A stretch of DNA of 64,000 nt from Actinomyces timonensis DSM 23838. GTDB taxonomy: Bacteria > Actinomycetota > Actinomycetes > Actinomycetales > Actinomycetaceae. The DNA lies in NCBI RefSeq assembly GCF_000295095.1, contig NZ_JH806632.1, forward strand, positions 508,450-572,449, in the 5' to 3' direction. Under the pieces are notes generated by a model. It saw only the letters and a list, made by a program, of their open reading frames with translations. It had not been told where the DNA came from and ran no database searches. Shown here in pieces: positions 32,626 through 46,315 of this stretch. Within the stretch, counting starts at the first letter, position 1; every line of letters starts with the position of its first letter. Made by a program: the position numbers and the translations under genes.

Positions 32626-33249
32626 TCAGCGCCCCTGCCTCGCCTTGAGCCAAGCAGCCACCGCCTCGGCGCGGGTGTGGACGCCGATCTTCGGGTACGC
32701 GGCGTTGAGGTAGTTCTTCACAGTGCGCTCAGACAGGTACAGGCGAGCGGAGATCTCCTTGTTGGAGCAGCCGTCGGCGGCCAGCTCGAGCATCTCCGCC
32801 TCCCGATCCGTCACGAGGGAGCGCAAGGGGTTCGCTTCCCCGGTTCCAGTAGGATTGAGGACGATCTCGGCCGCCTCGCGTCCCAGGACGAGACCACCCC
32901 GCGCGCAGGTCTCGATCGCGCCCGCGACCTCATTGACACCGAGCTGCCCATGCACGAGGTACCCGCGCGCTCCCGCGGCCAGCGACCGGCGAATGAGCTC
33001 CGGCTCCGTCATCGATGTCAGCATGATGACACTCATGCGCTCAGCCAGCTCAGGAAGGACGTCCAGTCCAGAGCGCCCCGGCATCCTCACGTCGAGAAGG
33101 CAAATGTCAGGCTGGGCACCGGCGGCAACCTCGAGCGCGGCGAACGCGTCCGCGGCTTCGACAACCTCCGTCACGGCCTCCACTCGATCCAGGACCGCGC
33201 GCAATCCAGCGCGAACGATGGCATTATCGTCAACAACCATTATTTTCAA
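32626..33249 (-). CDS. NarL/LuxR-type response regulator
   Basis: This 207-residue regulator has a receiver domain with acidic pair D7-D8, phospho-acceptor D53 in 'CLLDVRMPG' and T78. The conserved receiver lysine is replaced by histidine (H100 in 'GYLVHGQ'). A LuxR helix-turn-helix follows ('LTDREAEMLELAADGCSNKEI' region, 'LYLSERTVKNYL'). The start is the TTG at 33249, preceded by AGGAGG that overlaps the stop of the kinase gene, so the pair is translationally coupled. It likely controls the Tad locus or flp, given its position. Confidence 0.92.
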   Translation of the reverse strand: MKIMVVDDNAIVRAGLRAVLDRVEAVTEVVEAADAFAALEVAAGAQPDICLLDVRMPGRSGLDVLPELAERMSVIMLTSMTEPELIRRSLAAGARGYLVHGQLGVNEVAGAIETCARGGLVLGREAAEIVLNPTGTGEANPLRSLVTDREAEMLELAADGCSNKEISARLYLSERTVKNYLNAAYPKIGVHTRAEAVAAWLKARQGR

Positions 33250-33253
33250 CGCT

Positions 33254-34474
33254 CTACCTCCTCGACATACTGAGCGCTCGCAGTGGGACAACCAGCCTCA
33301 AACACAGGCCGTCACCATTCTCCGAGCGGGATGAAACCTCGAGCCACGCTCCGAGAGAATCCGCCCGCTCTTTCATTCCTTGAAAGCCATAATGGCCGAC
33401 TCTGCCCTTATCAGCGATCACTGAGGCGGGAAGGCCGCGACCATCATCAGAGATCTCAATGAGCAGATCCTCCCCGAGCCGCTTCGCGGTGAAATACACA
33501 TGCCGCGCACCAGAATGCTTCTCGGCGTTCACGAGGGCCTCTCCGACGATGCGATGCAACTGCCACATCGCTTCTGGGGTTGAACGAAGAGCGCCCAACG
33601 TGCTGTCAATATCGAACACGGGTGTGATCGATGAGCGATCGCCCCAACGGACGACCGCTTCTTCAAGCGCCGCAACAGTATTGTCCTCACCCCCCACGCG
33701 GAGCCCATCCAATACAATACGGGCCTCTCGGCTAGCCTCGTCCGCCGACTCGAACAGTGTGCGGGAGAGAAGCGCGCACGTATGGCCCTCCTCGCGGAGG
33801 GCGCCATCCAGGGTCTCGGAGAGCATTCTTATTCCGTGAACACTTTTCGCAAGCGAGTCGTGGAGATCTCTCGCTATCGAAAGGCGCTCAGCCATGGCCC
33901 GGCGTTCCTCGCGCGCGCTGGCGACCTCAGCTGAGAGCTCGCCGATATCCCACACTTTCCGCCTCCATTTGTTGCCCAGCACGACGCTCGACACTATCCC
34001 AAGGCTCATTAGAAACGAGCTTCCCCTCACAGAATCTCCGGCAACGCCGCAAACAGCGATCCATGAGATGATTCCTGAGGCCCATACCGCAGGCCAGAGC
34101 GATGACATCGCAAGTCCGATAAACACTGCCGAGACGAGCGCGTAGGAGGACCAAAGCGCACGGAGGTTGTCCGCGTAACTGACGGCGCTCAGCAGCAGCA
34201 GACAGCCCACGACGAGATCAACGCAAGTGAGGAACCAATCGTGAAGAAATAACGGTAGACGCCTCCTGAGCCCTTGATAGCACGCCCAGCACACGGCGGT
34301 CGCCAGCACCGGCAGAAGAGCCGTGGCATAGGGCGCCCTCGATCCGAGGAGGAGTACCTCGCCAGCGAACAAGACTCCCATCCGGGCCACCGTCACTACA
34401 CCGAGCGCATCCATGACCCCTCGGTCGTTGACAACTCGAAGCAGGGATTCGCTCGAGGCCTGATGCGGCGGCAT
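33254..34474 (-). CDS. DesK-type sensor histidine kinase
   Basis: This 406-residue kinase has five or six transmembrane helices in residues 20-165 with short loops, so it probably senses within the membrane. A coiled linker leads to the HisKA_3 box 'SIARDLHDSLAKSVHG' (H205). The ATPase domain has the N box 'GEALVNAEKHSG' (N316), 'SDDGRGLP' (344-347) and 'GHYGFQGMKERA'. The ATG at 34474 is chosen because GGGAGGATAAGTTG precedes it, with the tadC stop embedded in that site. It lies inside the Tad operon between tadC and flp. Confidence 0.93.
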   Translation of the reverse strand: MPPHQASSESLLRVVNDRGVMDALGVVTVARMGVLFAGEVLLLGSRAPYATALLPVLATAVCWACYQGLRRRLPLFLHDWFLTCVDLVVGCLLLLSAVSYADNLRALWSSYALVSAVFIGLAMSSLWPAVWASGIISWIAVCGVAGDSVRGSSFLMSLGIVSSVVLGNKWRRKVWDIGELSAEVASAREERRAMAERLSIARDLHDSLAKSVHGIRMLSETLDGALREEGHTCALLSRTLFESADEASREARIVLDGLRVGGEDNTVAALEEAVVRWGDRSSITPVFDIDSTLGALRSTPEAMWQLHRIVGEALVNAEKHSGARHVYFTAKRLGEDLLIEISDDGRGLPASVIADKGRVGHYGFQGMKERADSLGAWLEVSSRSENGDGLCLRLVVPLRALSMSRR

Positions 34475-34478
34475 CAAC

Positions 34479-35372
34479 TTATCCTCCCAGGATTTTTGCC
34501 AGGACATCACGATTCGCGAAGATGAAGCCGCCGATCATGAGGATCATGGTCCCTGGTACCATCGTCACCGTCGCGATGAGCGCAACCTTCGGCTGCGCCT
34601 TGCCTGCCGCTTGAAGCACCTGCTGCGCCCGCGTTCTTCGGATCTCCCTCACGATCGAACTAAGAGCGTCCCCAATCGGTGTGCCCAGTTCCTCCGATTG
34701 CAGGAGGGCACCGACGAAGACGTCCACATTCTCCGAGCGGCATCGTTCTCGCGTCGCAGCGAAGGCATCTCGTCGAGCAACCCCAAGTCGCATCTGATGA
34801 AGGGCCATCCGCATCTCCTCGGCGACTGGCCCGTCGAAGTAGTCGCAGACCCTTTCCAGAGCACTTCGGAAAGGGATTCCCGAGCGAACCGTAACGGCGA
34901 GCACCTCCAGGAAATCAGGAAGGTCCCTGTTCACCGAATCCTGCCTCTTGCGTACCGCTTGAGCCAACCACAGATACATCCATCCGGAGAATATAAGAGC
35001 AATCGTCGCGCCGATGTAGGGATGCCCAAGCAGTAACATCAATGCGAAGATCACCGCACTGAGAACAAGGAACCCGGCCTCTCGCTGAATGAAGAGGTCA
35101 AGCGTAAGGCCTTCCGGGTTGCCAGCATTCTTGAGCCGCCTGTCGAGCGAGCGGAGCCTCGACTGGCCATACAGCTGGCGCAAGAGTCGCTGGCCACGCA
35201 GCCCTACGGCGTCAAGGAGCCTGACGAAGAGACCGTCATCCTTGGTCTTACTCGCCTCCAAACCATCGCCACCAAGATAGTCCGCATCGTGGCCTCGAAC
35301 CATTCTGATTCCTGCGGCGGCCGTCAAGACATACACGAACGACAACAACGCCACGCCCAACGCCAGCAGCAT
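34479..35372 (-). CDS. tadC: Tad pilus inner-membrane platform protein TadC
   Basis: This 297-residue T2SS F-domain protein has N-terminal and central transmembrane helices, the domain 'LPDFLEVLAVTVRSGIPFRSALERV' region, and a final helix at the C-terminus. TadB and TadC form the membrane platform driven by the TadA ATPase. It follows tadB after 3 bases and has a GAGGTG site. Base composition is clearly less GC-rich than in the housekeeping genes. Confidence 0.92.
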   Translation of the reverse strand: MLLALGVALLSFVYVLTAAAGIRMVRGHDADYLGGDGLEASKTKDDGLFVRLLDAVGLRGQRLLRQLYGQSRLRSLDRRLKNAGNPEGLTLDLFIQREAGFLVLSAVIFALMLLLGHPYIGATIALIFSGWMYLWLAQAVRKRQDSVNRDLPDFLEVLAVTVRSGIPFRSALERVCDYFDGPVAEEMRMALHQMRLGVARRDAFAATRERCRSENVDVFVGALLQSEELGTPIGDALSSIVREIRRTRAQQVLQAAGKAQPKVALIATVTMVPGTMILMIGGFIFANRDVLAKILGG

Positions 35373-35375
35373 AGC

Positions 35376-36299
35376 TCACACCTCAACCCTCGAGACAAGC
35401 CGCATGAGAAGAACTCCGATGACGAAGAACACTGCGGATACCACCAAAATGATCTGGCCGACTAACGATGTGGCCATATCATCGAGAACACCGGGGCGCA
35501 TCATGTTGAGGAGAATCACCGAGGCCGCGCCGATGCATGGAACGATGTACGCACCGAATGCTGTTCCCAGAACTGCGGTTCGCACCTGACGGTGCAGTTG
35601 CTTGCGATCCTCCAGCGCAATAGCGATGTCTTGAAGCGCCGCCACGAGCGCGCCACCGGAGCGCGATTGAATGACGATAGTCCTTACGAGCACATTGAGT
35701 TCCCTGGAGGGCAGTCTCGCCGACAGCTCCTGCAGCGCACCGTCAAGTGACCAGCCCAGTTTCAACCGCGCGACCACGTCATTGATCTCAGTGTGGCTCG
35801 GCTCAGGCAATTCTTTGGCGGCCAAGGCCAGCGATCGCTCGACAGAAAGGCCCGCCGATGTTCCATTGGACAGAAAACGCGACAATTCGGGGAGTTGCGC
35901 GATGAACATTTCGGCCCGACGCAGGATCTTCCGTTTCAGCCACATATTGAATGCTACGGGGACAGCTAAGGCAATGACCCCGCCAGCGATATACCCGACA
36001 ATATACCGTGCACCGAGAAACGTAATAATTGAAAAGAGCGCGATGACCGACTGCACGATTGTCGACGACCACTGTATTCCCGCTCCTGCGAGGCGTCGGC
36101 GAAACGAATTCTGCACGGGCAGTCGGTCAATTCTGGCCGCCAGCCGTCTGAGAGCTCCGGCACGCTCGCCACCGTCTGCGCCCAGTGCCGCAGCGACTTC
36201 CGCAGAACGCTGTGACGCCATACCGAATACGAAGCAAGCCGCCCCACCGGCCACCAGAGTGGCGGTAAGTGATACAAGAATTGCGCCAATTCCGCTCAT
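35376..36299 (-). CDS. tadB: Tad pilus inner-membrane platform protein TadB
   Basis: This 307-residue T2SS F-domain protein has a typical core 'LPELSRFLSNGTSAGLSVER' and 'LKLGWSLDGALQELS', flanked by paired transmembrane helices. It pairs with TadC. Its ATG overlaps the tadA stop by 4 bases. Confidence 0.93.
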   Translation of the reverse strand: MSGIGAILVSLTATLVAGGAACFVFGMASQRSAEVAAALGADGGERAGALRRLAARIDRLPVQNSFRRRLAGAGIQWSSTIVQSVIALFSIITFLGARYIVGYIAGGVIALAVPVAFNMWLKRKILRRAEMFIAQLPELSRFLSNGTSAGLSVERSLALAAKELPEPSHTEINDVVARLKLGWSLDGALQELSARLPSRELNVLVRTIVIQSRSGGALVAALQDIAIALEDRKQLHRQVRTAVLGTAFGAYIVPCIGAASVILLNMMRPGVLDDMATSLVGQIILVVSAVFFVIGVLLMRLVSRVEV

Positions 36300-37600
36300 G
36301 CTGCGGCCTCCACAGCGAGTCCCATCGGCAAGCTTCCTCCATGGCGAAGCACTCGATCAGCCATCTGGTGTGGGATCGACCTCATCTCGAACTTCCCTTC
36401 TCCTCTGCGAGCTGAGCGCACGTATTCAAGGATCGAGGAGGTCTGGTAGGCGTCTCGATGACGGGAGGTGACAGTTTCAATAGTCGAGACCCGCCTCACG
36501 CCTTCGGAGTCGCGTTCCAACTGGACGATCACATCGATCGCGCCGTTGATCTGGTCACGGATTGTCTCCACAGGAAGTTCGACATCGGACATTGAGGCAA
36601 GGGTCTCCAGCCGGCTCAGCGCGTCCGCGGCGGAGTTGGCGTGAACCGTTGTCAAGGAACCCTCATGCCCTGTGTTCATCGCTTGGAGCATATCGAGCGT
36701 CTCACCACCACGGACCTCGCCAACAATAATCCGATCGGGCCGCATACGCAGCGAGTTACGCACAAGATCCCTGATCGTCACCTGACCGCGCCCCTCAGTG
36801 TTGGGGGGCCGGGCCTCCAAGCGCACCACATGCGGTTGCTGGAGGGATAGCTCAGCAGCGTCTTCGATAGTGATGATCCGCTCGCGGCCTGAGATCACGC
36901 CAGACAGGGCGTTGAGGAAGGTTGTTTTTCCTGAACCTGTCCCGCCGGAAACCAGGATGTTGAGCCGCGCCTCGACTAGCGAGCCCAGGAGGTCGGCCGC
37001 TTCTTGAGGAAGCGACCTGCGCGCAACGAGATCGGCCAGCCTGAAGGGCTGCGGAAATCGCCGGATGGTGATTGTTGGTCCATCGAGAGCGAGAGGTGGG
37101 ATAATGACGTTGACACGCTCGCCTCCAGGAAGACGGGCGTCGACCATCGGACTCGACTCGTCGATGCGCCGGTTGACCGAGGATACGATCCTGTCGATCA
37201 ACTGGTAGAGGTCGGCCTCCGAGGTGAAGCGCGTCGGCACTCGCTCAATTCGCCCCGAGCGCTCGACGAACACGTCGTCGGCGCCATTGACCATAATCTC
37301 CGTGACGCTGCTGTCGGCCACAAGAGGCTCGAGGACACCAAGGCCAACGGCATCATCGATGACCCGCTTTATGAGCCAGGCCCGCTCCCGTGGCGACATG
37401 ATCGGGCCCTCGAGCGAGAGCAATCGGGACAGCACCCTCTCCAGGCGAGCCCTCTGCTGGGCCTGCTCCAGACCGGCGACCTCATCGAGATCGACCTCGT
37501 CGAGGAGCCTGCTCCTGTACTCGGCGACCAGATCTTCTCGGCTCCCCGCCGACTGCCGTGTGCCGCGCTCCGAAGGCGCGACGCGATCCTGCAGTGCCAT
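36296..37600 (-). CDS. tadA: Tad pilus secretion ATPase TadA
   Basis: This 434-residue VirB11/PilT-like ATPase energises pilin insertion and probably retraction. Walker A is 'GGTGSGKTT' (219-227), the Asp box 'TIEDAAEL', Walker B 'VGEVRGGE' (293-300) and the His box '[12 protein letters not shown]' (311-322). The N-terminal domain holds '[20 protein letters not shown]'. It follows the TadE/F-like gene by one base and overlaps tadB. Confidence 0.97.
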
Positions 37601-37601
37601 C

Positions 37602-38003
37602 TCAGCGCTCCGGGAAGTAGGCCGTGCGGGTCACAGTGACATCTTCCGTCGTGATCGACGGGAGACCGATCGGCACCCTGGCCGTGACGCTGACACATCT
37701 TCCGGAAGCGCAGTTGTCCGAAACTGATTCAAGCCTCACCCAGTCAGGCAGGCTCCTTTCGACAGCCTCACCGGGCGCTTGTCCGAGCATCGCTGCCCGA
37801 GCACCGTCGCGAGCGGCGGACTCCACAGAGGTGACAGTGGAGACCGCGAGGAAGCCCTGGACCAAGAACAGCGTGACAAGTACGAGAATCGGCACGAAGG
37901 CGACCAGCTCGATGTCGAGGACCCCCTTCTCCTCCCGCAAGAGTCTTCTTCGCAGGCACGGCCACCAGCTTTGCATTTCTCGGCGCACAGATTTCCCAGG
38001 CAT
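37602..38003 (-). CDS. TadE/TadF-like pseudopilin
   Basis: This 133-residue protein has an Arg-rich leader, then 'EEKG' (Gly27) and 'VLDIELVAFVPILVLVTLF'. A Glu at mature position 5 is retained. A prepilin peptidase could therefore process it. The extracytoplasmic part carries two Cys ('NCASGRC'), likely a disulfide, as in TadF. The ATG at 38003 follows GGGAGA and lies one base after the TadZ-TadE stop codon. Confidence 0.85.
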   Translation of the reverse strand: MPGKSVRREMQSWWPCLRRRLLREEKGVLDIELVAFVPILVLVTLFLVQGFLAVSTVTSVESAARDGARAAMLGQAPGEAVERSLPDWVRLESVSDNCASGRCVSVTARVPIGLPSITTEDVTVTRTAYFPER

Positions 38004-38004
38004 G

Positions 38005-39600
38005 CTATCTCTCCCAGACAATTCCTGACGACGCGGTTGTATGAGCGTCGATCACGGATGGAACCGGCAAAGTCACCGTCACCTTGTTCGAGGCCGAACG
38101 CTCGATCGTCATCTCCGAGGCATAGACACCTGGAAGATCATGGGCGACCACCGCGTGAACCTCTTCAACCGATTTTCCGACGGCATACGCATGCGCAGCC
38201 TCTTTCGCCGCATGGTTCGCATACATATATGAAATACCGAACCCTAAACCTTGGATACACATAAGAAGCGCCATTGTCGCAAGAGCGAAGACCACGGGAA
38301 ACTCGACCATGATCTGCCCCTTCTCGGGTCGCGCTTTGCGACGGAGCGCCGAGCGGCGCCTCCGCGCACGTCCACCGCGCTTACTCGTCTGATGGGCCTG
38401 GGGCTCACTCAGTCCGTCATGACCCGTGGCGTCCGTGGCACCACGCGTTGTGACACTGCCTGCGGCGTTTGTGGACGTGACGACAGTGTTGGCGAGCTCC
38501 TCCCCCGCCTTGGAGAGTTCTGCCACGCTGGACGTGAGGAGCGTCGAGGAATTGAACGCATTCTCCGCTTGTGCGGTCACGTCGCGGACAGAGACGGCAA
38601 GGGGCATGCCAGACATGCGCGAGGCGGAAGACGGCTGAATCTCCCGCTGGCGGCTAGTCCGATTGAGGACGAGCGCCCTCGATCTTCCTCGGCCGATGTC
38701 GAGGCGGTCCAGCGATTCCTCAAGCTTCCGCACGGCGCGTAGAGCGGGCGTATCCGGGGTCGCCACGACGAGGACCTGATCGGCTGATTCCAGGCCCATC
38801 GCGAGAAGCTCATCAAGTCGGCTTCCGCAGTCGATCATGACGTAGTCGAACTGATACCTGAGCATCGAGATGATCTGGCGTGCCGCCGTATCCGTGAGGG
38901 ATTCTCCGTCCTCGCTAGCCTCGGGCGCGGGAAGCAGAGCGAGGCCTCCGGGCAGCGGGTACATGACCTCGGCGACTTCACGCGCGCTCGCCTCCGCCGC
39001 GATATCAACGAGGTCAGTGATTGAGCGCCTCACGGTGATCCCAGACATAGCCGCGATGCATCCCGATCGCACGTCTAGATCGACGATACAGGTCCGTCCT
39101 CTCCTCGCCAGCTGTGCCGCAGTCATCAAGGCCAGTGTGGATGTGCCGACTCCTCCCTTGGCACCAACAAACGCGACGACTGATCCCAAACCGCGGGGCA
39201 TGAGGTCCTCGGGCGCGCTCGTGCTCGCTCGCACCGTGCGGGACCACTCGAGGACAGGCTGGAGCCTGCTGGAGATCTCCTCTACTGACAGTGGCAGCGC
39301 GAGCACCGTCCGCGCACCGGCGTCCATGGCAGCCGTGAGTGTCTCGGCGCTGCGGCTGCGCGCTAGGAGGACAATGGGAACAAGCGGGTGCGCACGCGCC
39401 AATTCCTGAATCACAGACAGCGCTGGAAGGGAGCTGAGCCCCTCATCGACGAGCACGCAGGACGTATCCGCATCCGACACTTCCTCGCGCAGGCGCTCGA
39501 GAGAGTCAAGCGCGGATATTCCGCTGAGCCCTTCGACCTCCGAGAGCGCTGCGGTGACCTGCATCCTGACGTCATGGTCTTCTGTAAGCAGGAATTGCAT
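38005..39600 (-). CDS. TadZ/CpaE ATPase fused to a TadE-like pseudopilin
   Basis: This is one 531-residue frame. Residues 1-110 are a receiver-like CpaE N-domain ('HDVRMQVTAAL'). A MinD/ParA-type ATPase follows with deviant Walker A 'AFVGAKGGVGTSTLAL', 'IVDLDVRSGC' and 'VMIDCGSRLDELLAM'. After a Ser/Thr linker and an Arg/Lys cluster ('RARRRRSALRRKAR') comes a TadE pseudopilin: 'PEKG' (Gly428) then 'QIMVEFPVVFALATMALL' with Glu at mature position 5. TadZ localises the pilus machine; TadE is a minor pseudopilin. I see no in-frame ATG, GTG or TTG that would start TadE separately. Peptidase cleavage after Gly428 would separate the two parts. The ATG overlaps the cpaB stop; a GTG one codon upstream is an alternative. 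Confidence 0.9.
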   Translation of the reverse strand: MQFLLTEDHDVRMQVTAALSEVEGLSGISALDSLERLREEVSDADTSCVLVDEGLSSLPALSVIQELARAHPLVPIVLLARSRSAETLTAAMDAGARTVLALPLSVEEISSRLQPVLEWSRTVRASTSAPEDLMPRGLGSVVAFVGAKGGVGTSTLALMTAAQLARRGRTCIVDLDVRSGCIAAMSGITVRRSITDLVDIAAEASAREVAEVMYPLPGGLALLPAPEASEDGESLTDTAARQIISMLRYQFDYVMIDCGSRLDELLAMGLESADQVLVVATPDTPALRAVRKLEESLDRLDIGRGRSRALVLNRTSRQREIQPSSASRMSGMPLAVSVRDVTAQAENAFNSSTLLTSSVAELSKAGEELANTVVTSTNAAGSVTTRGATDATGHDGLSEPQAHQTSKRGGRARRRRSALRRKARPEKGQIMVEFPVVFALATMALLMCIQGLGFGISYMYANHAAKEAAHAYAVGKSVEEVHAVVAHDLPGVYASEMTIERSASNKVTVTLPVPSVIDAHTTASSGIVWER

Positions 39601-40322
39601 CACTGACCACCTCCTGCCGGGGCAGCGCCAGTTGACGAGCCATAGTTAGGGTTGCTGACACTTGAATCGTCTCCGTCGCGGCGAAGCAGGAGCCGAACCT
39701 TCGTGGAGAAGCTCTCCGCGTAGGCGAGCTTGAGCGACTCCTCCGGGGTGAGCGAGAACGTGACCGGTACCTTTTCACTCTCCTGCTCAAAATTCCCTTC
39801 GCCGTCCTTCTTCTGGACTGCCGTCGCCACGCCCACCTCGGTGATGAGGGCATTCTGGATGATCACCGAGGCGTTCTGGGACTTGTTCTCCGAATCCTCC
39901 GTGGTTGAGATGACGTCGACGCGCGCGCCAGGAGAAATGCGCCCTGCTACGCCCGTTTCCGAGTCCACCATGATGGTGACCTCCCGATATCCTTCCGTGA
40001 GCTGAGGAGGATCGATGAGCATGCTCGCCTGGAGCGTGTCGCCCTTCTTGTAGGCCCCCGCTGCCACCTTGCCGTCAAGCGCCGAGGTGTCCTTAATGGC
40101 ACCGTCCGGAACCCATCGTTCAGGTATTTCGACGGTTTCCACGTTGGATGCTGAGATTGCCTGGAGCTCGTTGACGTCGCCAGACAGTTTGACCACGGTG
40201 GTCATCGGGCCGACCTGCGAGGAGACAGATTGGACGTAACTGAAGACCGCTCCGAAGGTGACCACGGCTCCGAGGATGGTGACGAGGATGAGTAACACTC
40301 CTCGTCGCTGGCGCGGATTCAT
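39600..40322 (-). CDS. cpaB: CpaB/RcpC-like pilus assembly protein
   Basis: This 240-residue protein has one N-terminal transmembrane helix ('GVLLILVTILGAVVTFGAV') and an extracytoplasmic SAF domain ('ALDGKVAAGAYKKGDTLQ') followed by the RcpC/CpaB domain ('TIMVDSETGVAGRISPGARVD' region). In diderms it works with the secretin; in monoderms it is kept and may stabilise the pilus at the wall. The start ATG at 40322 has AAGGAGAACAG upstream. A longer frame exists but is Arg/Pro-rich and unsupported. Confidence 0.9.
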   Translation of the reverse strand: MNPRQRRGVLLILVTILGAVVTFGAVFSYVQSVSSQVGPMTTVVKLSGDVNELQAISASNVETVEIPERWVPDGAIKDTSALDGKVAAGAYKKGDTLQASMLIDPPQLTEGYREVTIMVDSETGVAGRISPGARVDVISTTEDSENKSQNASVIIQNALITEVGVATAVQKKDGEGNFEQESEKVPVTFSLTPEESLKLAYAESFSTKVRLLLRRDGDDSSVSNPNYGSSTGAAPAGGGQ

Positions 40323-40332
40323 CTGTTCTCCT

Positions 40333-41487
40333 TCATCGGGTGGGGGCGTAGGCCGGCGGCAGTGGCGCGGAGGTCGGTGCAGCGGACTTTGGCGAGTTGG
40401 TGACGACGATTGGCCTCGCCCACGCAGGAGCCTGTTGTTCCGCGTGAGCAGCATCGGACGGGCGCGCATGGGGCGCACCAGGTAGGTTCGGTTGCGGCTG
40501 CGCGGAGTGGCTAGGAGGCTTCGCTGGTGTTGCGGATACCGATGGTGGACTCTGCGGCGGCGCGGGGGGTGATGAATGAGTCGGAGCTGTGGCTGGTGCG
40601 GCAGGGACTGCCGACGGGGCCGCCTGCCGACCATGACCCGTGGGGTACGACCTCGTCGCTGGTGCCGCCTGCACGGCGTCGGGGATGGCGCGCGTATCCT
40701 GAACAGGGAAATGGGGCCAGGTTCCGCAGAGCACGCATCCTTGGGGAAGCGCAGGACTGCCACACCGCGCGCATCGCGCCCGAGAAACGTGCTCAAGCGC
40801 CCGGGAGACGATGACGCGGGGGTCGATCGTCAGCCAGGACATCTCGGCCCAGTTCTTCGCCGGCCACGTGTGAGAGATAGGGAGGAGCTGCTCCCGATGG
40901 ATCCCCATGCTGGCAAGGGCGCCGCTGACCCGTCCGGAATGATCGTCCGCCGCCCACACGCTGAGGCTCGCCTTCGTCGGCGGCTCCCATCCTGGCGTGG
41001 TCACCCGACTGACGGTGGACTGCTCCAAGTCAAGGCAGAACTTCGATCCGGGGAGGAGTCCTTGGACGTGCTGCAGAAGGCTCGGCGCGGGCGCTGTCAC
41101 TTTGGATACGGAGGTGAGGACGACCCTCGTGCGCAGCGCGCGCAGCGCGAGTTCCACCACGGCGGGCACCTGGGCGAGCAACTGAGGCGTCACGTTGCTC
41201 GCGCAGTAGGCGAGAAGCTTGAACCTGGTCTCCGATTGGTTGATCGCCAACACCCCGAGGCCTGGACGCCCGAGCGAGGTGCGCACGAGACGGGCCTCAT
41301 GCTCATCCACGCCACTGCGGCACAGCAAGAGAACGGGCCAGTCACTCTCAGTCTGCTCGAGGATCCCGAGCGCCTGCTGCGCGTCGACATCACTGACGAC
41401 AGCGGCGTGAGGGCGGGTTCCGGTGAGCACGAGCATGGGCAGGGCCTCCTGACGCCGCGCTCTCGAAGCGAGGACGAGCACGGTCAT
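40333..41487 (-). CDS. Unknown Tad-locus protein with zinc ribbon and Pro-rich tail
   Basis: This protein has about 384 residues from the ATG at 41487; the start is uncertain because no strong ribosome-binding site is visible. Residues 1-230 form an alpha/beta-like domain with alternating hydrophobic strands ('PVLLLCRSGVDEHEARL', 'GLGVLAINQSE', 'RVVLTSVS') that I cannot assign. A four-cysteine zinc ribbon follows (C239, C242, C251, C254). The last 130 residues are Pro/Ala/Ser-rich and probably disordered. It lies between the prepilin peptidase and cpaB, 10 bases before cpaB. A regulator or adaptor of the Tad machine is possible but unproven. Confidence 0.65.
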   Translation of the reverse strand: MTVLVLASRARRQEALPMLVLTGTRPHAAVVSDVDAQQALGILEQTESDWPVLLLCRSGVDEHEARLVRTSLGRPGLGVLAINQSETRFKLLAYCASNVTPQLLAQVPAVVELALRALRTRVVLTSVSKVTAPAPSLLQHVQGLLPGSKFCLDLEQSTVSRVTTPGWEPPTKASLSVWAADDHSGRVSGALASMGIHREQLLPISHTWPAKNWAEMSWLTIDPRVIVSRALEHVSRARCARCGSPALPQGCVLCGTWPHFPVQDTRAIPDAVQAAPATRSYPTGHGRQAAPSAVPAAPATAPTHSSPPAPPQSPPSVSATPAKPPSHSAQPQPNLPGAPHARPSDAAHAEQQAPAWARPIVVTNSPKSAAPTSAPLPPAYAPTR

Positions 41488-41669
41488 CGATCTACAGGGA
41501 CAAGGGAGAGAGAGCGCGCTCGGTTGAGCAGAAGCACGTTCCCGTTTCGATGGCTCCACTCTAGGTCTCAGGACGGTCACGCGCGACGGGTACCGCTTCC
41601 CATCTCTGTGAACCTCGTCAACCACGAGGTCGGACAACATGTGCACGGCTCAGACAACGCTAGGGGCGG

Positions 41670-42488
41670 TCACGGCACTGCCAGCGGCCACACGAGGAAC
41701 GCCCCCGCGATGAGGTAGGGGCCGTACGCCATGGGATCCTTTCGACCAGCCCGGCGCAGGGAGAGGAAGGCAAGAGCCATGAGCCCGCCGAGCATGACCC
41801 CGCTCCAGAGAGCGAGTGCCGGCGGCATCGCGCCGTACCACCCGAGCCAGAGCCCGATGACCGCGCACAGCTTGACATCGCCAAGGCCAAGGCCCGTTCG
41901 GAGTAGAGCGGCGAGGAGGCTGATTGCTCCGGCAGCCAGTGCGCATAGCACGGATCGCAGCGCATCGTGCGCCAGCGCGGGTGTGATCGCCGTAGCAATG
42001 ACGCCGCAGCCGGCGAGCCAGAGCGCTGCAGAACCGAGGAGCCGATTGGGCAGGATATGGGCCACGGCGTCGGCGCTTGCGGCGACGCCCAGCAGGGCAA
42101 CAACCGGTAGGGCAGTGGCCGACTGGACTTGGCTTCCCGTCTGCCCCCCCCACCACGCCACTCCGCCGCACGTCGTGAGGGCGAGGAGGCCTTGGGGAAG
42201 CGGGTTGAGGAGCCACCGGCGACGCAGCGTCGGCCGCCACTCGGGCTCAGCGTGAGCATCAGCATCGTCGGAGCGCGACCCGCCGGAGTCCTTCTGCGCG
42301 GCCTGGGACGTGGCAGCGTCCTCAGCCGCGGTGAGCAACAGGTCCTCAGCCGCCCCGGTCCTGACCGAACCTTCGGGAAACGCCAGCTTGTGAACGTAGT
42401 TCCGGGTCCATCGTGCGATCGGACCCGCTGCGAGCCCCACGGCCACAACAACCTCAGCCCCGAGAAGCCAATTGACACCGTGCATCAT
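41670..42488 (-). CDS. Prepilin peptidase (A24 aspartyl protease, TadV-like)
   Basis: This 272-residue integral membrane protease has the two active-site aspartates: D140 in 'SADAVAHILPN' and D204 in 'GLGDVKL' (GxGD motif). About seven hydrophobic segments follow an N-terminal region of about 90 residues that is partly polar and lacks the Cys motif of PilD. It should cleave the Flp, TadE-type and large prepilins of this locus after the conserved glycine. The start overlaps the stop of the DUF192 gene by 4 bases (ATGA), so the two are translationally coupled. Confidence 0.92.
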   Translation of the reverse strand: MMHGVNWLLGAEVVVAVGLAAGPIARWTRNYVHKLAFPEGSVRTGAAEDLLLTAAEDAATSQAAQKDSGGSRSDDADAHAEPEWRPTLRRRWLLNPLPQGLLALTTCGGVAWWGGQTGSQVQSATALPVVALLGVAASADAVAHILPNRLLGSAALWLAGCGVIATAITPALAHDALRSVLCALAAGAISLLAALLRTGLGLGDVKLCAVIGLWLGWYGAMPPALALWSGVMLGGLMALAFLSLRRAGRKDPMAYGPYLIAGAFLVWPLAVP

Positions 42489-44193: not shown

Positions 44194-45654
44194 CTAGCAG
44201 CCCTCCCACGGCACCCACTTCGTACCATCCCAATATTCACCATCACTGTAGTTCACAGACTTGCTCTCATCTTTATATCCGACCCCGAAGTTGAAGCCGT
44301 CCCCCTTCGCGGAGAGGTCGAGAGCGAGATTGGTATTGTCGTCGGTGACAACTTTCCTTTTCGTCACCTGGCCATTGGCCTTAGCCTCTTCGACAAACTC
44401 TTGATACGGGTTGTGGCCGGCCAGCATCTGCGCCGCCCCAACCACCGGGATCCCAGCGGCAAGCATAAGGCTGTATCCTTTTGCGGCAGACTCAGGATTT
44501 GTCATATCCACCTGGGTCTCGACAACCTGACCACCTTCCTTGCTGATCCCAGGGTCATCACCGATGAGCGGATTGAGGATCTCACCCTTGACCTCACCAT
44601 TGACAAGAGCCGTCATCGTTGTCGTCAACGGTTTTCCATTCGCATCCACCTTCACCGCGATCATCGTCTCCATCGTCCCATTAGCCTGGCCATGCACATC
44701 AGAGACCGCGGCGGGATTGATCTGGATAGTACCATCGGCGCTCGCAGACACATTGGCCTTGTAGTAGTAGGTGGCACTGCCATCAGCGTCGAAGGTCGCC
44801 CCCAGCGCTCCCGATAGATCCGCCTTCGCTCCAACAGACGCTGGTCCAGCATTCGCACTCCCGCTGATACCACCACGGACACCACCTTCCACGGTGTGCG
44901 ATTTTGGCTCGGGGAGTTTGTAGGTTCGAGCCCCATGAGAATCGGTCACATAATCATAAATGCCTTTCACCGGCCCAATCACCGGCGTAGTGTCATTGGT
45001 GATCTGATTCTGGAAGTAGTCAACCATCCGCTCCATCTCTTCCTTAGATCCGACCTCATACGTGGTGGAGTACTCCCCGGTCGCACCAACCTCAGCGGCA
45101 GCATTTTTTTCTACATCAAGGCCAGCTTTCTTCGATCCTTTTCCACTCGATCCCCCCTTATTGCCCTTGCCTCCTTTTCCGCCAAAGCTATGGTCGCGAC
45201 TTTGGTCATCCCATGTACCGCTCGCGCTAATGCCAGGCGATGTGAACTCGTAACTCACATCACCCTTATACGTCCTCGTGATCCTGTAGGTGCCGTCGCT
45301 CATCTGCTCGACCTTAAGCCGCTCGCCGCCTTCGAGGGTGACGAAGAAGGTCCCGCTCACGCTCTTCTCACGAGAGTTCTCTGAGACAACACAAGGCCCT
45401 TTCGGCTTCCTATCATCCGCCTTGTCATCACCGGAGCCGCAGTTGAGCGGAGCACCTCCGCCTAGTTGGGAGATCGCGCTCTCGATCTTGCAGACGATGG
45501 CCTTGCTGATATCCGTACCAGCGGTCCCCAGTCCGGCCGCGATGATGGCAGCAATCAGCACTGCTACCACGATGGCCATCCCAGAATGCTCGACGAGCGT
45601 CTGGCCGCTCTCGCCGTTGCGGCGGCCCTTCGGCTTCCTACAGGTCGTGTCCAT
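44194..45654 (-). CDS. Very large Flp-type prepilin
   Basis: The protein is about 486 residues from the ATG at 45654 (45672 is an alternative). It has a short basic leader ending 'GESG' (Gly17), then 'QTLVEHSGMAIVVAVLIA' with Glu at mature position 5 and His instead of Tyr at 6: a Flp/type IVb N-terminus. After the helix come cysteines (C55, C72, C88), a Gly/Lys/Ser-rich stretch (158-176) and about 300 residues of repeated Gly/Ala/Thr beta-type sequence. It ends 'YWDGTKWVPWEGC'. Typical Flp pilins are 50-80 residues, so this may be a tip adhesin or minor pilin assembled by the same machine (inference). The GC content is low relative to the neighbours. Confidence 0.8.
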   Translation of the reverse strand: MDTTCRKPKGRRNGESGQTLVEHSGMAIVVAVLIAAIIAAGLGTAGTDISKAIVCKIESAISQLGGGAPLNCGSGDDKADDRKPKGPCVVSENSREKSVSGTFFVTLEGGERLKVEQMSDGTYRITRTYKGDVSYEFTSPGISASGTWDDQSRDHSFGGKGGKGNKGGSSGKGSKKAGLDVEKNAAAEVGATGEYSTTYEVGSKEEMERMVDYFQNQITNDTTPVIGPVKGIYDYVTDSHGARTYKLPEPKSHTVEGGVRGGISGSANAGPASVGAKADLSGALGATFDADGSATYYYKANVSASADGTIQINPAAVSDVHGQANGTMETMIAVKVDANGKPLTTTMTALVNGEVKGEILNPLIGDDPGISKEGGQVVETQVDMTNPESAAKGYSLMLAAGIPVVGAAQMLAGHNPYQEFVEEAKANGQVTKRKVVTDDNTNLALDLSAKGDGFNFGVGYKDESKSVNYSDGEYWDGTKWVPWEGC

Positions 45655-45823
45655 GCGTCCGGAGTCCTTCATGGCACGATCGAACCTCAGCAGGTCGCCA
45701 GGGGGCCAGGGGCAGCCGCCCCATCCCGCGCCCCTTTCCGCGTCATTGCAGCCCTCCGCGCACCCAGCCACGTTCCTCGGCGCCTTGCTCTTCCCGGTCA
45801 CCCCCAGCGCCTTCAAGACGCGA

Positions 45824-45859
45824 CTGGGCCCCGGCCACCTCGCGGTGGTCGGGGCCCAG
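45824..45859 (-). terminator. Terminator of rplJL
   Basis: A 16-bp stem with a single wobble (45824-45839 with 45844-45859) around the tetraloop TCGC lies about 65 bases after the rplL stop. It separates the ribosomal-protein operon from the Tad locus. Confidence 0.8.
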
Positions 45860-45922
45860 CGGTGTTCGCGGCTCCCCCGCCGGCTCAGGCCACGTGGGCG
45901 CGCACCGGCGTCGGGGATGGGC

Positions 45923-46315
45923 TCACTTGAGGGTGACGGTGGCGCCAGCGCCCTCGAGCTGCTCCTTGGCCTTCTCGGCGGCGTCCTTGGCAACGCCCTC
46001 GAGGACGGGCTTCGGGGCGCCGTCGACGAGGTCCTTGGCCTCCTTCAGACCGAGGGAGGTCAGGGCGCGCACCTCCTTGATGACCTGGATCTTCTTGTCG
46101 CCAGCGGCCTCGAGGATGACGTCGAACTCGGTCTTCTCCTCGGCGGCGTCGCCACCGGCAGCCGCAGCGCCGGGGGCGGCGGCCACGGCCACGGCGGCCG
46201 GGGCGGCGGCGGTGACGTCGAAGGTCTCCTCGAAAGCCTTGACGAACTCGGACAGCTCGATGAGGGTGAGCTCCTTGAAGGCCTCGATGAGCTCGTCGGT
46301 GGTCAGCTTCGCCAT
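45923..46315 (-). CDS. rplL: 50S ribosomal protein L7/L12
   Basis: bL12 (130 residues) forms the flexible stalk that recruits translation GTPases. The N-terminal dimerisation domain, Ala/Pro hinge and C-terminal domain ('[15 protein letters not shown]', '[14 protein letters not shown]') are present. It follows rplJ after about 70 bases, with AAGGAA upstream. It is normally followed by rpoB, but here by the large prepilin gene after a terminator. Confidence 0.98.

Follow-up and report, generated by a model that had tools for sequence, protein, structure and literature searches.

The window, that is, the 64-kb stretch of Actinomyces timonensis DSM 23838 DNA analysed here, contains a Tad pilus locus in which one stop-free open frame (38005-39603, minus strand) encodes both TadZ, the cytoplasmic ATPase for positioning of the Tad pilus, and TadE, a membrane subunit resembling pilins, the fusion occupying the place of the two separate genes (Table 1). 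An earlier note on this DNA had described the frame as continuous, which is borne out both by the window itself and by the fused state of all 20 same-genus loci of this type. The likely start of the fusion gene is the ATG at 39598-39600, which is preceded by AGGAGGT 8 bases upstream and shares bases with the TGA that ends the CpaB frame (TGATG), a GTG at 39603 being a less likely start. On its other side, the gene for a second TadE/F pseudopilin begins at 38003, one base past the TAG stop of the fusion.

Table 1. Features of the Tad locus and of the tadZ-tadE fusion gene in the window; in site motifs, a slash marks the predicted prepilin peptidase cut.
Feature	Position	Strand	Basis
TadC platform protein	34479..35372	(-)	PF00482 3.7e-18
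TadB platform protein	35376..36299	(-)	PF00482 1.9e-16
TadA motor ATPase	36296..37600	(-)	PF00437 2.8e-71; TIGR03819 3e-102, below its cut-off
Second TadE/F pseudopilin, separate gene, site REEKG/VLDIE	37602..38003	(-)	PF07811 1e-5 on the longer frame 37602-38021
tadZ-tadE fusion gene	38005..39600	(-)	531 aa, ATG start at 39600, TAG stop; open frame
Predicted mature TadE pseudopilin, 103 aa (residues 429-531)	38008..38316	(-)	Profile match to stand-alone TadE; hydrophobic helix, mean 2.21
Gly428 codon, predicted prepilin peptidase site PEKG/QIMVEF	38317..38319	(-)	Gly in 67/67 fused proteins
Linker, then Arg/Lys-rich segment ending in the site glycine (residues 366-428)	38317..38505	(-)	Poorly conserved
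MinD/ParA-like ATPase domain of TadZ, P-loop GAKGGVGTS	38707..39183	(-)	PF13614 (AAA_31) 1.5e-13
Receiver-like domain of TadZ	39262..39591	(-)	PF00072 (Response_reg) 1.4e-8
CpaB/RcpC frame, true start probably well inside	39600..40796	(-)	TIGR03177 4.8e-32, matched from residue 171
TadV-type prepilin peptidase	41670..42488	(-)	PF01478 5.1e-9; GLGD and DAVAHILPN motifs
Frame with Flp-like site and helix (GESG/QTLVEH), long C-terminal extension	44194..45993	(-)	Sequence, hydrophobic helix

Other frames of the region are less readily assigned. The start of the frame with the Flp-like site (44194-45993, minus strand) probably lies inside the annotated one; the site, GESG/QTLVEHSGMAIVVAVLIAAIIAAGLG, is found at residue 130 of this 599-residue frame, and the more than 400 residues that follow it gave no significant family match in Pfam or NCBIfam, such a major-pilin-like start on a large protein seeming unusual. 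Between CpaB and the prepilin peptidase, a 437-residue frame (40333-41646, minus strand) gave no Pfam or NCBIfam match at E<=0.1. Directly past tadC, two frames (32626-34510, minus strand) resemble a sensor kinase and a response regulator that ends in a helix-turn-helix, a pair that may regulate the pilus locus. The genome also contains two further Tad-like clusters, L178 (~308-310 kb) and L180 (~973 kb), with TadE-, Flp- and TadG-like ORFs carrying E-x-G sites. In relatives, TadA comes next in the four loci tested (L034, L042, L052 and L054; three fused and one split), and the platform proteins number one in L034, one in L054 and two in L042.

The 531-residue product comprises, in this order, a receiver-like domain, a MinD/ParA-type TadZ ATPase, a variable linker, a basic segment, the sequence PEKG/QIMVEF, and a TadE pseudopilin. 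It shares with TadZ/CpaE proteins both the succession of receiver-like domain and ATPase and the Tad locus setting; however, those proteins end after the ATPase, whereas the fused TadZ continues through the linker into the pseudopilin. Among solved structures, the TadZ family profile finds 4dad and 4dn6, whose names refer to pilus assembly / CpaE, and the profile of A1, an alignment of 20 Actinomyces proteins, matches 3ea0, an ATPase of the ParA family, at 5.6e-18. The P-loop is altered in the TadZ of all 20, reading GAKGGVGTS in 16, GAKGGVGAS in 3, and GAKGGVGSS in 1. The TadZ part of the window protein also matches CpaE_hom_Actino (TIGR03815) at 8.8e-17, but its 61.2 bits fall below the cut-off of 154.45; thus, it is not an Ssd equivalog, though homologous.

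Mean identity to the window protein among the 20 Actinomyces is 0.59 for the ATPase, 0.12 for residues 366-407, 0.33 for the basic segment, and 0.575 for the TadE helix, the linker varying in length and sequence both in A1 and among the 67 fused proteins collected from Actinomycetota (see below). The Arg/Lys-rich tail that the earlier note placed before the site is a feature of Actinomyces, where the net charge of the 21 residues up to the site glycine ranges from 2 to 10 (median 7), but it is not universal, the same charge ranging from -5 to 10 (median 4) when all 67 are considered.

Taken alone, the TadE part of the window protein passes no curated cut-off, as it matches Pfam TadE (PF07811) at E 0.032 with 14.8 bits (cut-off 22.9) and TadE_Rv3655c (NF041390) at 1.4e-4 with 22.3 bits (cut-off 40). 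Among the 67 fused TadE domains, matches at E<=0.01 were obtained for 43 with PF07811 and for 52 with NF041390, and the profile of the 67 aligned with that of eight stand-alone TadE proteins at 1.2e-33 over 113 columns (hhalign). Comparison of the TadE part with solved structures produced no match (a single row at E 0.98). The site, the helix and a mature part of ~100 residues are common to the TadE_Rv3655c family and the C-terminal part of the fusion; on the contrary, the leader is of 13 to 56 residues in the eight unfused TadE proteins measured and of 428 residues, ATPase included, in the fusion.

This type of TadZ is present in 20 of 49 Actinomyces genomes, and in all 20 it is fused, in one frame and with no stop. 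In the other 29 the best match lay between 2.5e-11 and 3.1e-4, those listed being other ParA-type or receiver proteins, and two of these genomes (G007 and G038) also gave a weak match to the TadE part alone. Matches at 1e-20 were found in 30 of 213 genomes of the family, and matches at 1e-18 in 47 of 396 genomes of the order and in 73 of 396 of the phylum. Among the matches whose loci were retrieved, classification extended to those with a P-loop match, which L119 and L151 lack and so are excluded from all counts, yielding 164 TadZ frames, with a hydrophobic helix after the ATPase in 81 and without it in 83. Among the 81 are L051 and its repeat L128 (one sequence), reset by hand to unfused; as fused loci they were rejected, having passed the hydrophobic filter through a Pro/Ala/Val-rich tail while their TadE gene starts at the TadZ stop. 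Among the 83 are L055, L087 and L141, whose frames run off the available sequence and whose fusion state is undecided. In the block of loci from L055 to L110 (n = 56), 54 are unfused and 2 are cut by the sequence end.

The search in related genomes that the earlier note had proposed thus found the same fusion, with 67 non-identical fused loci in Actinomycetota from several families, some of them in other classes of the phylum. Outside Actinomyces, and among the best 80 of at least 426 confirmed stretches, it was found in Cellulomonas, Promicromonospora, Myceligenerans, Isoptericola and an Egibacteraceae bin; a plasmid collection that was searched held no relative of it. A sequencing or assembly frameshift that joined two genes, named in that note among the things that could overturn the observation, is refuted by these relatives, since the same fusion is found in 19 other Actinomyces genomes and in other genera, and its probability is practically nil. 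Over 5084 linker codons, the fused loci have 0 stops in frame, as compared with 69 and 76 in the two alternative frames, a count that is partly circular because the fused loci were chosen as open frames. What had been taken for the oddity of a single genome is a real observation, but the fusion is a recurrent architecture in Actinomycetota.

Even with a genuine frame, TadE might still be made separately, from a start inside the tadZ frame. The earlier note had reported no ATG, GTG or TTG near the TadE part, in agreement with the nearest in-frame one being 69 codons upstream of the site. The window does contain a CTG 31 codons before the site, and an ATG, GTG or TTG occurs within 20 codons before it in 13 of the 67 fused loci, both of which would suit an internal start. 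Nonetheless, no clear ribosome site was seen by eye in the window before the codon 69 positions upstream or the CTG (plausible ones for the genes on either side read AGGAGGT and GGGAGAG). In the 67 loci, moreover, the distance from the site back to the closest ATG, GTG or TTG varies widely, between 5 and 130 codons, with none within 40 codons in 28 and none within 60 in 9. No conserved internal start was seen, either for ATG, GTG and TTG in the 67 loci or for CTG, ATT and ATC too in 20. Separate production of TadE from within tadZ is therefore very improbable. An in-frame ATG at codon 431, with AAGGGG upstream, was also considered as a TadE start and rejected; it is found in 2 of 20 Actinomyces and lies after the cleavage site, so that a start there would lose the leader and the site.

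The internal prepilin-type site PEKG/QIMVEF was placed at Gly428 by the earlier note, and the residue number agrees. Sites were read by locating the acidic residue nearest the helix start and taking the residue five places before it, glycine not being required; in the 67 fused proteins, counted after L051 had been removed by hand as a false positive, position -1 is glycine in every case. Position +5, the residue that served as counting anchor, is Glu in 64 and Asp in 3. Position -3 is Glu in 37, Asp in 23 and Gln in 7, while position -2 accommodates eleven different residues. The constant presence of Glu, Asp or Gln at -3 in fused loci is a possible extra recognition feature of actinobacterial TadV.

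When the 67 TadE parts were aligned with MAFFT (29% mean identity), the glycine was the sole invariant column of the 106 well-filled ones, the next-best reaching 97% and below and the +5 Glu 95.5%, although the fragments began four residues before the site glycine, which aids alignment of that end. Both Gly428 and Glu433 are invariant in A1. The genome supplied eight further prepilin-like helices for comparison, of which two lie in the window and six in L178 and L180; they were selected by eye among TadE matches and adjoining ORFs. Each carries Glu at -3 together with Gly at -1, and six carry Glu at +5, which is lacking in an Flp-like ORF of L178 and a TadG-like ORF of L180. For 40 of the 67 fused loci, a small ORF bearing glycine at a site of this type was identified downstream, and in 37 of these 40 position -3 is E or D. 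Peptidase_A24 has a single match in the genome, inside the window locus; thus, if prepilins are cut, it is probably by this enzyme.

Considering that (i) glycine occupies position -1 in 67 of 67 fused proteins, (ii) the same E-x-G precedes eight other helices, and (iii) the only Peptidase_A24 match lies in this locus, cleavage after Gly428 by TadV is strongly suggested. The site moreover looks as if it had been selected for cleavage; a membrane anchor alone would need no glycine. This bears directly on the idea that the fusion stays wholly or partly uncleaved, with TadE as a transmembrane anchor tying TadZ to the pilus base, in which case it would be the counterpart of PilM-PilN in type IVa pili or of GspL. 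Such an anchor agrees with the single-pass layout (a cytoplasmic ATPase-fold domain, a variable linker, a helix and an outer part), with the PilM-PilN fusion described for C. difficile in the pertinent passages of PMC6916266, and with the prospect, opened by passages on Caulobacter in PMC13170226, that the fused helix could replace the C-terminal amphipathic helix of CpaE. On the contrary, an anchor has no need of the glycine that all 67 fused proteins carry at -1, and the TadZ clade includes 13 unfused members that manage without the link. We consider an uncleaved anchor unlikely.

A first tree was built from the TadZ part only, with repeats removed, and included 67 fused and 33 labelled unfused rows, with 6 from L055-L110. 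All 67 fused rows fall in one TadZ clade of 81 (SH-aLRT 99), together with 14 labelled unfused: ten of the Streptomyces branch, Quadrisphaera and a close relative, L116, and the undecided L141. Since L141 meets a contig end, 13 of the 80 clade members of known state are unfused. The branch with two named Streptomyces comprises 13 rows, the ten labelled unfused among them, while the branch of Cellulomonas, Promicromonospora and Isoptericola is fused throughout (12 of 12 rows). A second, slower tree, made without seven long or distant rows and with one of L055-L110 (L059), shows 6 changes of state, or 5 without L141, all forced by well-supported branches, and the fused or split state has changed at least 5 times in the TadZ clade. 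The 5 label changes compare with a mean of 22.2 in shuffles, a difference that shared ancestry alone can cause.

In unfused members of the clade the two genes are tightly apposed, the TadE start codon being placed anywhere from 4 bases within the tadZ stop to 6 bases beyond it in all 13 that are readable, with a 4-base overlap in L050, L153, L155, L159 and L161. Eight of these 13 unfused TadE proteins have a leader of 13 to 56 residues and a site of the same kind as the fused ones. The unfused TadZ of Quadrisphaera and its relative (L050 and L051) ends in a tail rich in Pro and Ala that is well over 100 residues long, and in both the TadE start overlaps the TadZ stop by 4 bases.

One old fusion followed by several splits, perhaps with re-fusions in the Streptomyces branch, fits this picture well in view of the unfused outgroups, the tree itself giving no direction of gain or loss. 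Given the 13 unfused clade members and a state that changed no fewer than 5 times, a covalent link cannot be a strict requirement, whether for the 1:1 stoichiometry or for the membrane delivery of TadZ that the earlier note envisaged, and the repeated changes argue for a link that would be helpful rather than essential, or even neutral. In the latter case, the polyprotein would be cleaved but of no consequence, the stop/start junction being repeatedly lost and re-made and TadV separating the parts in any event. The number of state changes points in this direction, as do the close spacing of the two genes in all 13 readable unfused members and a linker hardly conserved in length or sequence. 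Nonetheless, the fusion is kept in 20 of 20 Actinomyces and in all 12 rows of the Cellulomonas, Promicromonospora and Isoptericola branch, and shuffled labels change much more often, though shared ancestry suffices for this difference. A neutral polyprotein is possible but, in our judgement, somewhat improbable.

The account that we favour, and hold to be probable, is that the fusion is a conserved polyprotein belonging to actinobacterial Tad (type IVc) pili: TadZ would serve as the leader of the TadE prepilin, TadV would cut it, and TadE would act at the base. Passages of PMC10191384 describe prepilins as inserting with a cytoplasmic leader and the peptidase as acting on the cytoplasmic side near the membrane, which makes a cytoplasmic ATPase topologically possible as a leader. 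Accordingly worded for the fusion, the basic segment and the hydrophobic helix would insert the TadE part in the membrane with TadZ facing the cytoplasm, and TadV would then cut after Gly428, in keeping with its being required for TadE and TadF maturation in the portion of PMC12307814 that deals with it. TadE (103 residues) would become a minor pilin at the pilus base, while TadZ (428 residues) would remain beside the membrane with its basic tail. For M. luteus, in which TadZ is absent, the relevant passages of PMC4322843 report that TadE/F were not found in pili and propose a structure or role at the base.

Before cleavage, a flexible tether would keep TadZ at the membrane beside the pseudopilin and would co-deliver both to the TadA/TadB/TadC machine. 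In Caulobacter, as presented in parts of PMC13170226, CpaE is placed as six dimers in a ring around the motor CpaF, a C-terminal amphipathic helix of CpaE serving for membrane contact, and the model sets the minor pilins on the overlying platform; in the fusion, a linker of tens of residues or more would tie TadZ to a pseudopilin at that very position. We think that the fusion at least brings TadZ and TadE to the same place at the same time, delivery, membrane anchoring and equal dosage being candidate selected advantages, if there are any. Among the papers listed by a search of the open-licence literature, none described a prepilin peptidase that cuts its substrate behind a folded ATPase.

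TadZ and TadE are known families, to which both halves are homologous by sequence, and it is their covalent arrangement for which no description was found in the open-licence literature, whose passages, those of PMC3244431 and of the papers cited here included, were searched by term, subscription papers falling mostly outside the search. In Bifidobacterium, tadZ and tadE are given as separate genes in the passages of PMC13091076 that list them. The closest parallel in layout that we have encountered appears to be the PilM-PilN fusion of the C. difficile type IVa pili, which, as set out in part of PMC6916266, likewise joins a cytoplasmic ring component to a single-pass base component. The protein families concerned are unrelated to TadZ and TadE. 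To our knowledge, PilN of C. difficile has no prepilin site. In another actinobacterium, M. luteus, the TadB-TadC fusion of tad-2 also joins two neighbouring Tad genes, but these are two platform proteins, and the passages of PMC4322843 on this fusion mention no cleavage. By extension of the PilM-PilN role, the uncut fusion might link the Tad motor ring to a minor pilin across the membrane, with the TadV cut as a switch from base assembly to pilus priming and the whole as an old feature of the clade; we regard this combined proposal as fairly doubtful.

How the Tad assembly complex holds together is presented as an open question in passages of PMC6916266, where TadZ and TadG are suggested as stand-ins for PilM-PilN-PilO. 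That TadZ and a pseudopilin are covalently joined in nature suggests a shared site of action, a point of relevance to what keeps the base of the pilus together. Many actinobacterial Tad systems are moreover reported, in the part of PMC6668835 devoted to them, to have no recognisable minor pilins. The fusion may explain part of this apparent absence, as a minor pilin may have been overlooked, in part, because it is hidden behind an ATPase and, in the window copy, scores below the Pfam cut-off. Finally, if the cleavage is real, it would widen what a prepilin peptidase tolerates on the leader side of its substrate.
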